NCBI RefSeq assembly: GCF_017313765.1
Contig: NZ_JAFLNC010000002.1
Location: 62,001-126,000 of the forward strand
From: Sneathiella sedimenti
GTDB taxonomy: Bacteria > Pseudomonadota > Alphaproteobacteria > Sneathiellales > Sneathiellaceae
Direction: 5' to 3'
DNA: 64,000 nt
The notes under the pieces are model-generated. The model was not told the DNA's origin. It did not search any database and was given only the letters and a program-made list of their open reading frames with translations. Every line of letters begins with the position of its first letter. Position 1 is the first letter of the stretch. This document shows positions 41,902 through 50,468 of this stretch, piece by piece. A program made the position numbers and the translations under genes.

Positions 41902-42876
41902 GTGTTGATTAAAATTCCAAAAAACTGGGAACTCCCTGAATCAAAGGCAACGCCGGAAAATGTTTATTTGAACCGGCGAACTGTTCTGAAGGGGATGGCC
42001 GGCGCCGGCTTGATTGCCTCTATTGGTTCGAACGCCGCCTTTCGTGAAGCATTTGCCGCAGGCGCCGCTGACCCGAGCGCAAGTCTTTACCCTGTCCCGC
42101 GCAATGACCTTTACAAAGTTTCCCGGGCGCTGACTCCCGAGAAAATTGCGACGACCTATAACAACTTTTATGAATTCGGGTCACACAAGGAGATATATGT
42201 AGCTGCTCAAGCGCTCGAGATTCGTCCCTGGACCGTGAAAATTGACGGCATGGTCGAAAAAGAGATGGAGATAGACATCGACGATCTTCTTGCAAAGATG
42301 CCTCTGGAAGAGCGGATCTATCGGCACCGCTGCGTGGAGGGGTGGTCGATGGTGGTGCCCTGGAGCGGGTTTCCAATGAAAGAGCTCGTCAAGCTGGCGG
42401 CGCCTACGTCTGGCGCAAAATATGTTGTCATGCAAACCTTCCAGGATAAATCCGTTGCCCCCGGTCAGCGGCAGTTCTGGTATCCCTGGCCCTATACCGA
42501 TGGATTGACAATTGAGGAGGCGACGAATGACCTCACTTTCCTGGTGACCGGACTGTACGGAAAACCCCTGCCGAAGCAGAACGGCTCGCCCTTACGTTTG
42601 GCGGCACCGTGGAAATACGGCTTTAAACAAGTGAAATCAATTGTCCGTTTCTCCTTTACCGACAAACGTCCCGAGACATTTTGGGAAACACTGATCAGCA
42701 ATGAATATGGGTTCTGGGCGAATATTAACCCGGAGGTGCCTCATCCCCGATGGTCACAGGCAGAGGAGCGGGATATTGGCACCGGCGAAAAGATTCCGAC
42801 CCTCCTTTACAATGGCTACGGTGAGTATGTCTCCGATATGTATAAGGACATGAAGGGCGAACGCCTCTTTATGTGA
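41902..42876 (+). CDS. msrP: Protein-methionine-sulfoxide reductase catalytic subunit MsrP
   Basis: MsrP (YedY) is a periplasmic molybdopterin enzyme that reduces oxidised Met residues in envelope proteins. The 324-aa precursor has a Tat signal (NRRTVLKG, residues 24-31) and the molybdenum-ligand Cys in RHRCVEGWSMV (C144). It also has the sulfite-oxidase fold blocks WKYGFKQVKSIVRF and NEYGFWANINPEVPHPRWSQA. Translation starts at GTG 41902. The haem membrane partner MsrQ is usually adjacent but is not found here. The gene fits the window's molybdenum-cofactor genes. Confidence 0.94.
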   Translation: MLIKIPKNWELPESKATPENVYLNRRTVLKGMAGAGLIASIGSNAAFREAFAAGAADPSASLYPVPRNDLYKVSRALTPEKIATTYNNFYEFGSHKEIYVAAQALEIRPWTVKIDGMVEKEMEIDIDDLLAKMPLEERIYRHRCVEGWSMVVPWSGFPMKELVKLAAPTSGAKYVVMQTFQDKSVAPGQRQFWYPWPYTDGLTIEEATNDLTFLVTGLYGKPLPKQNGSPLRLAAPWKYGFKQVKSIVRFSFTDKRPETFWETLISNEYGFWANINPEVPHPRWSQAEERDIGTGEKIPTLLYNGYGEYVSDMYKDMKGERLFM

Positions 42877-42966
42877 TCAAGCTTTCCATTTTGGGCGAGA
42901 AAGAAATTTCCGGTCGCGGCGGTTTGCGAGAGCCGTCGGTTCTGCTATCAATGGAGAACCTATGAG

Positions 42967-42983
42967 ATTGGAATAATTCAAAA
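42967..42983 (+). promoter_or_regulatory. Candidate Irr-box (iron control element) before EncFtn
   Basis: ATTGGAATAATTCAAAA matches 14 of 17 positions of the alphaproteobacterial ICE consensus TTTAGAA-YNR-TTCYAAA, including the GAA/TTC core and spacer. It ends 8 bp before the Shine-Dalgarno sequence of the ferritin-like gene, a position expected for repression under low iron. Identified by eye; binding is unproven. Confidence 0.45.
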
Positions 42984-43007
42984 CGACGCCAAGGAGGGCA
43001 ATGCCAT

Positions 43008-43298
43008 ATGGCCAATGAAGGGTATCACGAGCCGATCGAGGAGCTTTCTGATGAAACACGGGATATGCATAGAGCGATCACCTCTTTGATGGAAGAACTC
43101 GAGGCCGTTGACTGGTATAACCAACGGGTCGATGCGTGCAAGGATGAAGAGCTGAAAAAAATTCTTGCCCATAACCGCGATGAAGAAAAAGAACATGCGG
43201 CGATGGTCCTTGAGTGGATTCGCCGAAGAGACCAGACCCTGGATAAGGAGCTTCGGGACTACCTCTTTAAGGACGGCAGTATCGGTCATCATGACTGA
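43008..43298 (+). CDS. Encapsulated-ferritin-type (EncFtn) iron oxidase, orphan short form
   Basis: EncFtn proteins are half-ferritins that form ferroxidase sites at a dimer interface and normally act inside encapsulin shells. This 96-aa protein closely follows the family core (ITSLMEELEAVDWYNQRVDA and AHNRDEEKEHAAMVLEWIRRRD). By alignment from memory to Rhodospirillum rubrum EncFtn, iron ligands are E30, E60 and H63, with W36-Y37 beside them. The protein stops at GSIGHHD, so the C-terminal encapsulin-targeting peptide is absent, and no encapsulin gene is in the window. A strong AAGGAGGG site precedes the ATG at 43008. Confidence 0.88.
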   Translation: MANEGYHEPIEELSDETRDMHRAITSLMEELEAVDWYNQRVDACKDEELKKILAHNRDEEKEHAAMVLEWIRRRDQTLDKELRDYLFKDGSIGHHD

Positions 43299-43308
43299 GT
43301 GTTGAGGG

Positions 43309-43440
43309 TAAAAAAAATGCCGGCCATGTGAATGGCCGGCAAGTCTGACAGGGAGGTACATCTAGCGAATAGATGTAAAGGGACAAGCAGGATAGGGAGG
43401 AAACCTCTCGCCCCTTGCCGGCAAATGCCAGCACCCAGAT
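43309..43440 (-). ncRNA. Cuckoo/AbcR-like small RNA unit A (array, distal)
   Basis: Read on the minus strand, this unit has a 5' hairpin region containing GAGG-TTT-CCTC and UUUCCUCCCU. A 7-bp hairpin ACATCTA-TTCGC-TAGATGT follows (43358-43376), then the single-stranded box ACCTCCCTGTCAGACTT, and finally a perfect 9-bp terminator, GCCGGCCAT-TCAC-ATGGCCGGC (43319-43340), with a T-run. The two CCUCCC motifs are complementary to ribosome-binding sites. The terminator also faces the EncFtn gene and may end both transcripts. The 5' end is estimated. Confidence 0.7.
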
Positions 43441-43540
43441 GATATATATTTCAATATCATCTTTTTTTTATATTGGGATTTTCCCCCCGATGTGAATACG
43501 TAAAACTACATATTGGGAAAGTTTTTCAAATCTGTTGCAA

Positions 43541-43695
43541 AAAAAAGACCGGCCTCAATGAAGAGGCCGGCTTAGTCTAACAGGGAGGTATTGCCTTTCG
43601 GCAACACAGATTACATGTGATTGGGAGGAATACATGTAATCAATATCAGCAGGGAGCTGATATAAAGTTAATGCTGCATCGCAACATCATGTAGT
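43541..43695 (-). ncRNA. Cuckoo/AbcR-like small RNA unit B (array, middle)
   Basis: The clearest unit. On the minus strand a 5' hairpin (ATGTTGC-GAT-GCAGCAT) is followed by ATATCAGC-TCCCT-GCTGATAT. Then comes a 10-bp stem, GATTACATGT with ACATGTAATC, whose loop shows TTCCTCCCAA, and a small TTGCC-GAAA-GGCAA hairpin. The conserved box TACCTCCCTGTTAGACTAA and a terminator (CCGGCCTC with GAGGCCGG, 43549-43570) with eight T end the unit. Stem sequences differ from units A and C, but the pairing is kept. This is strong evidence for a structured RNA. The 5' end near 43690 is an estimate. Confidence 0.75.
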
Positions 43696-43827
43696 ATAGA
43701 TAGCCATTACTGCCCCTGATTTCCACCTATAATATTGCAGCGCACCCATGCAAAAAGTGCATAGCTCAAAAAATTCCTGTTGGAGGTGCTGAATCCTCTC
43801 ACAGCGCTTATAGCGATAATTTTATTA

Positions 43828-43985
43828 AAAAAAATGCCGGCCAAATTAATGGCCGGCAAGTCTAACAGGGAGGTAATATGTCAAGAAGACATAAGTATTG
43901 CAAAAATCAGGGAGGAGATCTTGCAACATCACTCAGGTTCAACACCTTCATGAAAACGATTATTGCAATGCAACATCGTCTGCGG
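43828..43985 (-). ncRNA. Cuckoo/AbcR-like small RNA unit C (array, proximal)
   Basis: On the minus strand GATGTTGCATTGCAA resembles the 5' hairpin of unit B. A stem TTGCAA with TTGCAA then presents the loop motif CTCCTCCC (about 43911-43918). A 6-bp hairpin TATGTC-TTCTT-GACATA follows, then the shared box TTACCTCCCTGTTAGACTT, and a terminator GCCGGCCA-(6 nt)-TGGCCGGC (43836-43857) with eight T. It lies about 90 bp beyond the stop of the LysR gene on the same strand and could arise from its own promoter or by processing. Confidence 0.73.
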
Positions 43986-44071
43986 TCTTTCTATAAAATT
44001 AAGCGGTGTTAGAAAAGATCAATCTCGTCAATGCTACTATGCGCGACCTGCATAGCTATGCCAGTGATCCG

Positions 44072-45016: not shown

Positions 45017-45985
45017 CTATTCGGCGGCTTCCGCCGAGGCACTTTCATTCTCCGCAATAAATTTCTCCGCTTCCAGTGCCGCCATGCAGCCGGTACCTGC
45101 GGCGGTAACGGCTTGACGGTAAATTTTATCCTGGACGTCGCCACAGGCGAATATACCCGGAATATTTGTCGCGGTGGAATCGGGCGCGGTAATCAGATAA
45201 CCTTCGTCATCCATGTCGAGCTTGCCTTTAAACAGCTCCGTGTTCGGTGAATGGCCGATGGCGATAAAGACGCCATGAACGGAAAGATCCTGTGTCGCGC
45301 CCGTTTTGACATTGCGAAGCCGTGCACCGGTTACGCCAAAGGGATCTGCTTCGCCGAGAATCTCTTCGAGGACATGGTCCCAGATAATCTCGATCTTTGG
45401 GTTCTTCTTCAGCCGTTCAATCAGAATTTTTTCCGCGCGTAGTTCGTCTCTACGATGAACCAGGGTCACTTTATCGGCGTGATTGGTAAGGTAGATGGCT
45501 TCCTCCACAGCAGTGTTGCCACCGCCGATGACCAAGACTTCCTTGCCACGATAGAAAAAGCCGTCGCAGGTTGCACAGGCGGAAACGCCAAAGCCCATGT
45601 ATTTTTGCTCAGTCGGCAGGCCAAGCCATTTCGCAGCGGCACCGGTCGCTATAACAACAGACTGGGCAACATATTTGTTGCCTGAATCCGCGGTCGCAAC
45701 AAATGGGCGTCGGTTGACATCCAGATCGACAATGTAGTCGTTGAAAATACGCGTGCCGACGTTGCGGGCCTGTGCCTCCATCTGCTCCATCAGCCACGGA
45801 CCCTGTATGGCGTCCGCAAATCCCGGATAGTTTTCCACATCTGTGGTGATCGTCAGCTGGCCACCCGGCTGTAATCCATGGACAAGAATCGGGTCAAGGG
45901 ACGCACGCGCCGCGTATATCGCTGCTGTATCCCCGGCAGGGCCGGAGCCGATGATAAGAACTTCCGTGTGGTGAATTTCCGCCAT
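45017..45985 (-). CDS. trxB: Thioredoxin reductase
   Basis: TrxB passes electrons from NADPH through FAD to thioredoxin. The 322-aa protein has the FAD motif IIGSGPAGDTAAIYAA, the redox pair CATC (C137 and C140) in SACATCDGFFYRG, the NADPH motif VIGGGNTAVEEAIYL, and the C-terminal GIFACGDVQDKIYRQAVTAAGTG. It is followed 54 bp later by the LysR gene on the same strand, and the two are probably cotranscribed. The pairing with the LysR and nearby lrp genes is conserved in rhizobia. Confidence 0.96.
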   Translation of the reverse strand: MAEIHHTEVLIIGSGPAGDTAAIYAARASLDPILVHGLQPGGQLTITTDVENYPGFADAIQGPWLMEQMEAQARNVGTRIFNDYIVDLDVNRRPFVATADSGNKYVAQSVVIATGAAAKWLGLPTEQKYMGFGVSACATCDGFFYRGKEVLVIGGGNTAVEEAIYLTNHADKVTLVHRRDELRAEKILIERLKKNPKIEIIWDHVLEEILGEADPFGVTGARLRNVKTGATQDLSVHGVFIAIGHSPNTELFKGKLDMDDEGYLITAPDSTATNIPGIFACGDVQDKIYRQAVTAAGTGCMAALEAEKFIAENESASAEAAE

Positions 45986-49848: not shown

Positions 49849-49956
49849 GCCTCAACCTGTCAGACTTGCTTCTGATGTGGCGAATTAAAACTCTGAAATC
49901 GTAAAAGAGTCAAGAGTCTATGTTACAATTTTATAAAACACGGTTGGGGCATTCGC

Positions 49957-50075
49957 CAAAAAAAGAGCCGCCCTTTGAAAGGCGGCCCAAGTCAACAGGG
50001 AGGCGTCATAAAGACTGGAAAAGGGATCCCAGCCTTACGCAGCCCAAGACGGGCTACAGCTACCAACTTAACCAT
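49957..50075 (-). ncRNA. Cuckoo/AbcR-like small RNA unit D (solitary)
   Basis: On the minus strand a hairpin AGCCC-GTCTT-GGGCT (about 50039-50053) is followed by an 8-bp stem, AAGGCTGG with CCAGTCTT (one G-U), whose loop carries GATCCC. Then come the box GCCTCCCTGTTGACTTG and a terminator, GCCGCC with GGCGGC (49967-49986), and a seven-T run. The order of parts and the CCTCCCTGTTGACTT box match the units at 43.3-44.0 kb, but the sequence is more diverged (the box lacks two bases). It lies downstream of the DUF1192 gene on the same strand. Confidence 0.62.
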
Positions 50076-50177
50076 CATTTCTTAAATTACAATTAACGAA
50101 TATATGATTTTAGGCATTTTATCCCAAAATACTCAATGATTCGCCTTTTAAGAGAATCGGGTGGCGCGTTATAACCC

Positions 50178-50360
50178 CTAGGTTTTGAAAAATCCCGCTG
50201 CGGCGTTCTGGGCGGCCTCTTTTTTGGCGATAATTTCTTTTGTTTTCTCAATTTCTTCATTTAGCGCAGCAATATATTCATGAAGATCTGCGATCGACAT
50301 ACTGTCGAAATTTACCGGATTTTTCCCAAGTGCGGGTTTGTCATCATCATCACTTGTCAT
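50178..50360 (-). CDS. DUF1192 family small protein
   Basis: A 60-aa protein with the DUF1192 core SMSIADLHEYIAALNEEIEKTKEIIAKKEAAQNAA, a short amphipathic coiled coil that ends in a Phe-Lys tail. The family is confined mainly to alphaproteobacteria and has no known function. The ATG at 50358-50360 is preferred because the GAGGA site is 8 nt away; another ATG (50366) is too close to it. It is divergent from the quinone oxidoreductase gene. Confidence 0.85.
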   Translation of the reverse strand: MTSDDDDKPALGKNPVNFDSMSIADLHEYIAALNEEIEKTKEIIAKKEAAQNAAAGFFKT

Positions 50361-50468
50361 CGTCATATTCCTCAATATGCTAGGCAACCATTTCGACAAG
50401 AATAATGAATCGTATCGTGACTGTCTGCGACTTTGCGCGGAACCGCCCTAAAAATACTGGAGAGTAAA

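Follow-up and report, generated by a model that had tools for sequence, protein, structure and literature searches.

A three-unit array of predicted small RNA genes with anti-Shine-Dalgarno motifs beside an lsrB-type gene in Sneathiella sedimenti

A gap of 773 bp (43299-44071) in the 64,000-nucleotide stretch of DNA of the marine bacterium Sneathiella sedimenti analysed here (the window) contains three predicted sRNA genes in tandem on the minus strand. It is framed by an EncFtn gene (43008-43298, plus strand; TIGR04535, 135.9 bits for a cut-off of 125) and by a minus-strand gene encoding a LysR regulator (Table 1). We conclude that this array is a three-copy variant of the LsrB-AbcR system with multiple anti-Shine-Dalgarno (anti-SD) motifs, located outside of the Rhizobiales and absent from Rfam. 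The array probably consists of LsrB-AbcR-type sRNA genes arranged in tandem, which would be activated by LsrB and would act by blocking GGGAGG ribosome-binding sites.

Organisation and predicted folds of the units

The first-pass annotation had described three related minus-strand units between EncFtn and LysR, each ending with a shared box and a GC-rich terminator followed by a T-run, and all of these features were recovered. The box ACCTCCCTGT(C/T)AGACT and the terminator form a 50-nt 3′ module present in three minus-strand copies, two of which are 92% and 64% identical to the one taken as reference. A terminator scan returned 5 matches for 0.9 expected, 4 of these 5 being located at the three unit terminators. 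The 5′ ends of U1, U2 and U3 are predictions from box geometry and folding; since four hairpins precede each terminator, the units measure about 150-158 nt and not 100-150 nt as initially estimated.

Table 1. Window positions of the features predicted at the array locus.
Feature	Position	Strand	Remarks
sRNA unit U1	43310..43462	(-)	Four hairpins, box and terminator; predicted 5′ end
Rho-independent terminator of U1	43318..43341	(-)	Terminator scan
Anti-SD in U1 box ACCUCCCUGUCAGACU	43351..43356	(-)	Predicted unpaired 0.91-0.93 at three bases; other three predicted paired
Anti-SD CCUCCC, U1 hairpin 3 loop (UUUCCUCCCUAU)	43395..43400	(-)	Predicted unpaired 1.0; CUCCC invariant in 15 genomes
Decayed LsrB-type box before U1	43519..43532	(-)	Alignment: TGC-N7-GCAT in most relatives, lost in the window's genome
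sRNA unit U2, best conserved	43541..43690	(-)	Four hairpins, single-stranded box, terminator; predicted 5′ end
Rho-independent terminator of U2	43548..43571	(-)	Terminator scan; 100% paired in 23 genomes
Anti-SD in U2 box ACCUCCCUGUUAGACU	43583..43588	(-)	Predicted unpaired at least 0.97 save first base; CCUCCCU invariant
Anti-SD CCUCCC (UUCCUCCCAAU), U2 hairpin 3 loop	43623..43628	(-)	Predicted unpaired 1.0; UCCUCCC invariant in 23 genomes
CUCCC, U2 hairpin 2 loop	43652..43656	(-)	Predicted unpaired 1.0, save stem-closing first base
LsrB box of U2, ATGC-N7-GCAT-N3-TG-N3-T-GCAA	43735..43762	(-)	Box published in PMC7486931, PMC8844928
sRNA unit U3, nearest LysR	43826..43983	(-)	Four hairpins, box and terminator; predicted 5′ end
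Rho-independent terminator of U3	43835..43858	(-)	Terminator scan
Anti-SD in U3 box ACCUCCCUGUUAGACU	43868..43873	(-)	Predicted unpaired 0.99-1.0 at 5/6 bases
Anti-SD CCUCCC, U3 hairpin 3 loop	43910..43915	(-)	Predicted unpaired 0.98-1.0
LTTR/LsrB-type dyad ATGC-N7-GCAT upstream of U3	44039..44053	(-)	Conserved in Oceanibacterium and across the aligned Sneathiella loci
LsrB/VtlR-type LysR regulator, 296 aa	44072..44962	(-)	Orthologues in Mesorhizobium and Pleomorphomonas are followed by ar15
TrxB, thioredoxin reductase	45017..45985	(-)	Upstream of lsrB; TIGR01292, 408.9 bits (cut-off 343)

The predicted fold of every unit consists of four hairpins followed by the terminator, with energies of −67.2 kcal/mol for U1 (z −7.52), −61.1 kcal/mol for U2 (z −9.26) and −55.5 kcal/mol for U3 (z −6.88), each beating all 200 shuffles. 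The CCUCCC-type loops noticed at first reading are predicted to be largely unpaired: the motif of hairpin 3 is fully unpaired in all three units, and the box is mostly unpaired in U3 and U2, half of the box motif being paired in U1. U2 carries two hairpin loops with CUCCC, in addition to its box. Six of the 35 CCTCCC motifs of the window are located in the gap, all on the minus strand, and there is no excess of this motif over the whole window (35 for 35.6 expected).

The stems named in the first-pass annotation are present, and compensatory change, which it had noticed between units, is observed between species. Among the U2 sequences of 23 genomes, pairing holds in 98.4% of cells and both sides are altered in 22 of the 37 pairs, a value reached by none of 500 shuffles; pairing falls to 27-47% when the partners are shifted by 1-3 columns. 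U3 and U1 exhibit similar compensatory change over fewer alignable columns. The strong GC-rich terminator that ends all three units could suggest that the array is a divergent repeat of mere terminators or attenuators without trans-acting function. The covariation of the four upstream hairpins and the invariance of the CCUCCC loops in 23 genomes, as well as the recurrence of such units at this locus in dozens of genera, argue against this reading, which we consider extremely unlikely.

No further copy of the exact box was detected in the 3.58-Mb genome. Three near-matches (C4:55253, C1:90076 and C6:124670) were discarded as additional copies, an Rfam match being absent for all of them; those of C4 and C6 appear coding-like when read directly. 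The first-pass annotation had also mentioned four units: three are found in the array, and the fourth is probably a different sRNA located at 49958-50102 (minus strand), behind a small gene (50178-50399). This candidate is BjrC1505-like (RF02356, 40.7 bits for a gathering score of 50) and carries the same CCTCCCTGTTGACTT-terminator module as the array units; the 3′ module seems to be common to several alphaproteobacterial sRNA families. On the other side of the array, the alignment of the more distant Sneathiella genomes (L019-L029) appears to place a reverse-strand msrP-like gene directly after the array, with EncFtn absent between them (compare 41902-43298 in the window), and the encapsulin-ferritin gene therefore looks like an insertion or a loss in one clade.

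Conservation of the array and of its lsrB context

At the threshold used, the LysR protein was detected in 24 of the 26 genomes of the order, with 72-94% identity when its own copy is left out. Three units are present in 21 of the 23 usable loci and two units in the remaining two, one of which belongs to another genus, Oceanibacterium; both U2 and U3 were found in all 23 loci. A covariance model derived from U2 scores 80.7 bits on U3, and the model R1 scores 68.2 bits on U1. In a search of 142 whole alphaproteobacterial genomes, the U2-derived model gave a match in 56 of them and, in 35 of the 49 genomes having both the match and LysR, the best match follows LysR on its own strand at a distance of 87-427 nt. 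The named loci matched include those of Kiloniella, Minwuia and Magnetovibrio, among others. In two cases (G058:C22:20595-20730 and G062:C13:996241-996364), a U2-like match is located 3-5 kb beyond LysR on the same strand. The model also matches weakly the ar15 sites of Mesorhizobium (24-27 bits, E 2e-4 to 7e-4) and sites in Roseibium and Labrenzia (16-23 bits). In the alignment with Mesorhizobium, the anti-SD hairpin is superposed on the anti-SD hairpin and the terminator on the terminator, and the match comes mainly from these two elements.

The gene upstream of LysR encodes TrxB in 76 of the 80 named loci. In rhizobia, trxB and lsrB are adjacent (PMC11975290), the sRNA genes AbcR1 and AbcR2 are located in tandem beside lsrB, and the GCAT-N3-TG-N3-T box through which LsrB activates AbcR1 spans, in S. 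meliloti, positions −61 to −49 (PMC8844928; PMC7486931). In Mesorhizobium and Pleomorphomonas, the LysR orthologue is followed, after about 315-820 nt, by an Rfam ar15 (AbcR) match above cut-off.

An exact GCAT-N3-TG-N3-T sequence precedes U2 (43739-43751); it is conserved in the order and located at about −61 to −65 from the predicted start, a distance similar to that of S. meliloti. The sequences TTTTTGCATGGGTGCGCTGCAA and TTTTTGCATGCGTGTGTTGCAA precede U2 and the Mesorhizobium ar15, respectively; both lie about 61-65 nt ahead of the start of the RNA (a prediction in the case of U2) or of the model. The dyad of U3 lies about 59 nt ahead of the predicted start, and its box has an A in place of a T at one consensus position. 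Outside of Sneathiella, the composite TGC-N7-GCAT-N3-TG-N3-T is present in 10 of 57 LysR-downstream regions versus 0.01 in shuffles, and in none of these 57 regions on the other strand; the shorter TGC-N7-GCAT is present in 30 of 57 versus 2.0 in shuffles. The −35 elements are weak and a sigma-70 scan found no promoter; −10-like sequences and conserved LTTR boxes are located between lsrB and U3, and also between the units.

LsrB has been described as unique to Rhizobiales, and redox cysteines have been described in the LsrB of A. tumefaciens (PMC11975290). The LysR of the window contains no cysteine. As 84 of the 113 orthologues examined are also cysteine-free (an uneven set that includes L007-L138, most Mesorhizobium proteins being outside of it), the redox cysteines of the A. 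tumefaciens protein are not a general feature.

Relationship with known sRNA families

The first-pass annotation had pointed to AbcR sRNAs, and the locus and the regulator bear this out: as for AbcR1/AbcR2 (alpha-r15, RF02345), the units are tandem copies downstream of trxB-lsrB (PMC3712013, PMC8844928), preceded at about −61 by the LsrB box GCAT-N3-TG-N3-T (exact at U2, with one mismatch at U3, decayed at U1), and they combine UCCUCCC in a hairpin loop with a terminator and its U-tail. In contrast, the Rfam model does not recognise them. The search of the region with the ar15 model (threshold of 40 bits) gave nothing at the array up to E 10; its best match elsewhere in the same genome reaches 16.9 bits, and no match exceeds the cut-off in this genome or in the 142 genomes of the class. 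Several structural features also differ: UCCUCCC is in the third hairpin of the array units and not in the first, there are three copies versus two, four hairpins precede the terminator versus two, and the regulator lacks cysteines. Two binding motifs are known in AbcR, M1 (CUCCCA) and M2 (GUUCCC) (PMC5461406). Among the three units, M1 is present in U2 only, M2 is absent from all three sequences, and the 3′ box is CCUCCCUGUUAGACU where AbcR has M2. From their sequence context, we assign the units to the AbcR locus and, probably, to the same kind of regulator; they are not filed as members of ar15, because the array gives no match with the ar15 model.

The first-pass annotation had otherwise suggested cuckoo RNAs (CcsR/CIN1), in which a single RpoH-driven transcript, encoded behind a DUF1127 gene, is processed into several anti-SD stem-loops. 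Like CcsR1-4, the array displays several hairpins with CCUCCC-type loops, in which the stems vary and the loops remain constant. However, the exact CCUCCUCCC loop is absent, no DUF1127-like ORF is present in the gap, where the upstream gene is LysR, and neither tandem CCUCCUCCC loops nor tandem CCTCCTCCC were detected in the 26 genomes of the order. Moreover, each unit has its own terminator and two of the three have their own LTTR box, whereas RNase E cuts cuckoo RNAs out of a common precursor (PMC10253847, PMC8625941). The absence of tandem CCTCCTCCC and of a DUF1127-like ORF led us to reject a cuckoo/CIN1 identity, which is very improbable.

Two other Rfam families were also considered. The suhB model (RF00519) scores 29.7-31.8 bits on all three units, raising the possibility that these are paralogues of alpha-r8 (MmgR/Sis). 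This family belongs to the same clan as ar15 (CL00108), adjacent copies of it are known (PMC12559287), U1 contains UUUCCUCCCU as does the suhB consensus, and alpha-r8/MmgR/SisA-D also present CCUCCCU beside a short stem and a terminator. Nevertheless, the suhB scores remain under the gathering score of 41 and are equalled by another sRNA candidate (49951-50022, 31.1 bits), the covarying upstream anti-SD hairpins are outside of the 77-nt model, and the array is located at trxB-lsrB and not at the FGase gene, which is the landmark of alpha-r8 (PMC12559287). An alpha-r8 origin is therefore unlikely.

The SorX model (RF02784) scores 37.7 bits on U3, 30.8 bits on U2 and 46.6 bits on U1 (43312-43383), the latter being equal, as printed, to the gathering score, with U1 unlisted in the gathering-score scan of the window. 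A SorX-side reading is also in line with the start of U3 about 90 nt after the lsrB stop and with the similarity of the 3′ module (a small stem, ACCUCCCUGUNAGA and a GCCGGC terminator). This likeness is limited to the 3′ module: the 73-nt SorX model lacks the upstream anti-SD hairpins of the array, every unit ends with a terminator of its own, the stretches before U3 and between units contain −10-like sequences and conserved LTTR boxes, and known SorX is located in the 3′ UTR of ompR-1 in Rhodobacter (PMC8625941), whereas the gene upstream of the array is LysR. We consider this reading rather improbable. In Sneathiella chungangensis, U1 (L059 4588-4659) reaches 50.4 bits, above the Rfam cut-off, and an automatic annotation would therefore call it SorX despite the different locus.

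No single Rfam family covers the array RNAs, SorX matching the 3′ module only. Together with the covariation and the genus-wide conservation, this supports the initial proposal that the units form a multi-copy family of sRNAs bearing anti-SD loops, which may be a subfamily not described before. Our literature search retrieved nothing on AbcR in Rhodospirillales or on sRNAs in Sneathiella, and a term search of a paper on Azospirillum sRNAs showed no LsrB-linked sRNA.

Proposed regulation and significance

In the LsrB-AbcR-type regulation that we propose, LsrB, encoded just upstream with TrxB, would bind the ATGC-N7-GCAT-N3-TG-N3-T boxes before U3 and U2 and, in most relatives, the box before U1 as well. 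It would activate transcripts of about 150 nt, each ending at its own terminator. Each RNA would expose two or three CUCCC/CCUCCC anti-SD surfaces: the box CCUCCCUGUUAGACU, largely single-stranded, would provide one of them and hairpin loops the other one or two. Through these surfaces the RNAs may pair, probably with Hfq (an hfq gene is present, 111 bits), to GGGAGG ribosome-binding sites, which would stop translation of mainly solute-uptake and catabolic genes.

The pattern TGGGAGG-N3-9-ATG occurs 46 times versus 12 for the reversed pattern, whereas the control Shine-Dalgarno pattern TAAGGAG displays no excess (23 versus 29). Putative targets were sampled by this type of pattern only. Pfam analysis of 20 of the 21 sampled TGGGAGG genes identified five transport genes (three encoding DctP solute-binding proteins and two encoding ABC ATPases) and, among the others, many catabolic genes and one encoding a sigma-70-family factor (regions 2, 3 and 4). 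Among the control genes, none of the 10 out of 17 that were scanned corresponds to transport, and the other seven do not look transporter-like by eye. This small and post hoc gene set is a weak hint in line with the bias of AbcR towards ABC transporters. The sequence around the start of a sigma-70-family gene, possibly rpoH (L179 1516-2418), is TGGGAGGAAGATCACATG and can pair with the U2 loop, a possible link between the array and a stress sigma factor.

In rhizobia, Agrobacterium and Brucella, nutrient uptake, symbiosis and virulence are controlled by AbcR sRNAs together with LsrB/VtlR, which activates them. That Sneathiella, Oceanibacterium, Minwuia, Kiloniella, Magnetovibrio and others share this trxB-lsrB-sRNA arrangement and its promoter box, with sRNAs in which Rfam sees no single family, suggests a greater age and a wider distribution of the regulator-RNA pair than so far described. 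One scenario, which may equally well be right or wrong, is that LsrB and an sRNA with multiple anti-SD motifs form an ancestral alphaproteobacterial module, present in many non-Rhizobiales lineages without an Rfam model. The original LsrB would have been devoid of cysteine redox sensing, the three-gene expansion would have occurred in Sneathiella, and rhizobia would have acquired the redox-sensing LsrB and the two-motif AbcR later, as specialisations. As most of the orthologues examined have no cysteine, a thiol switch cannot be the general signal of LsrB. The genomes carrying the array offer a simpler, non-pathogenic setting for asking what this signal is, with arrays of one, two and three copies available as a natural series.
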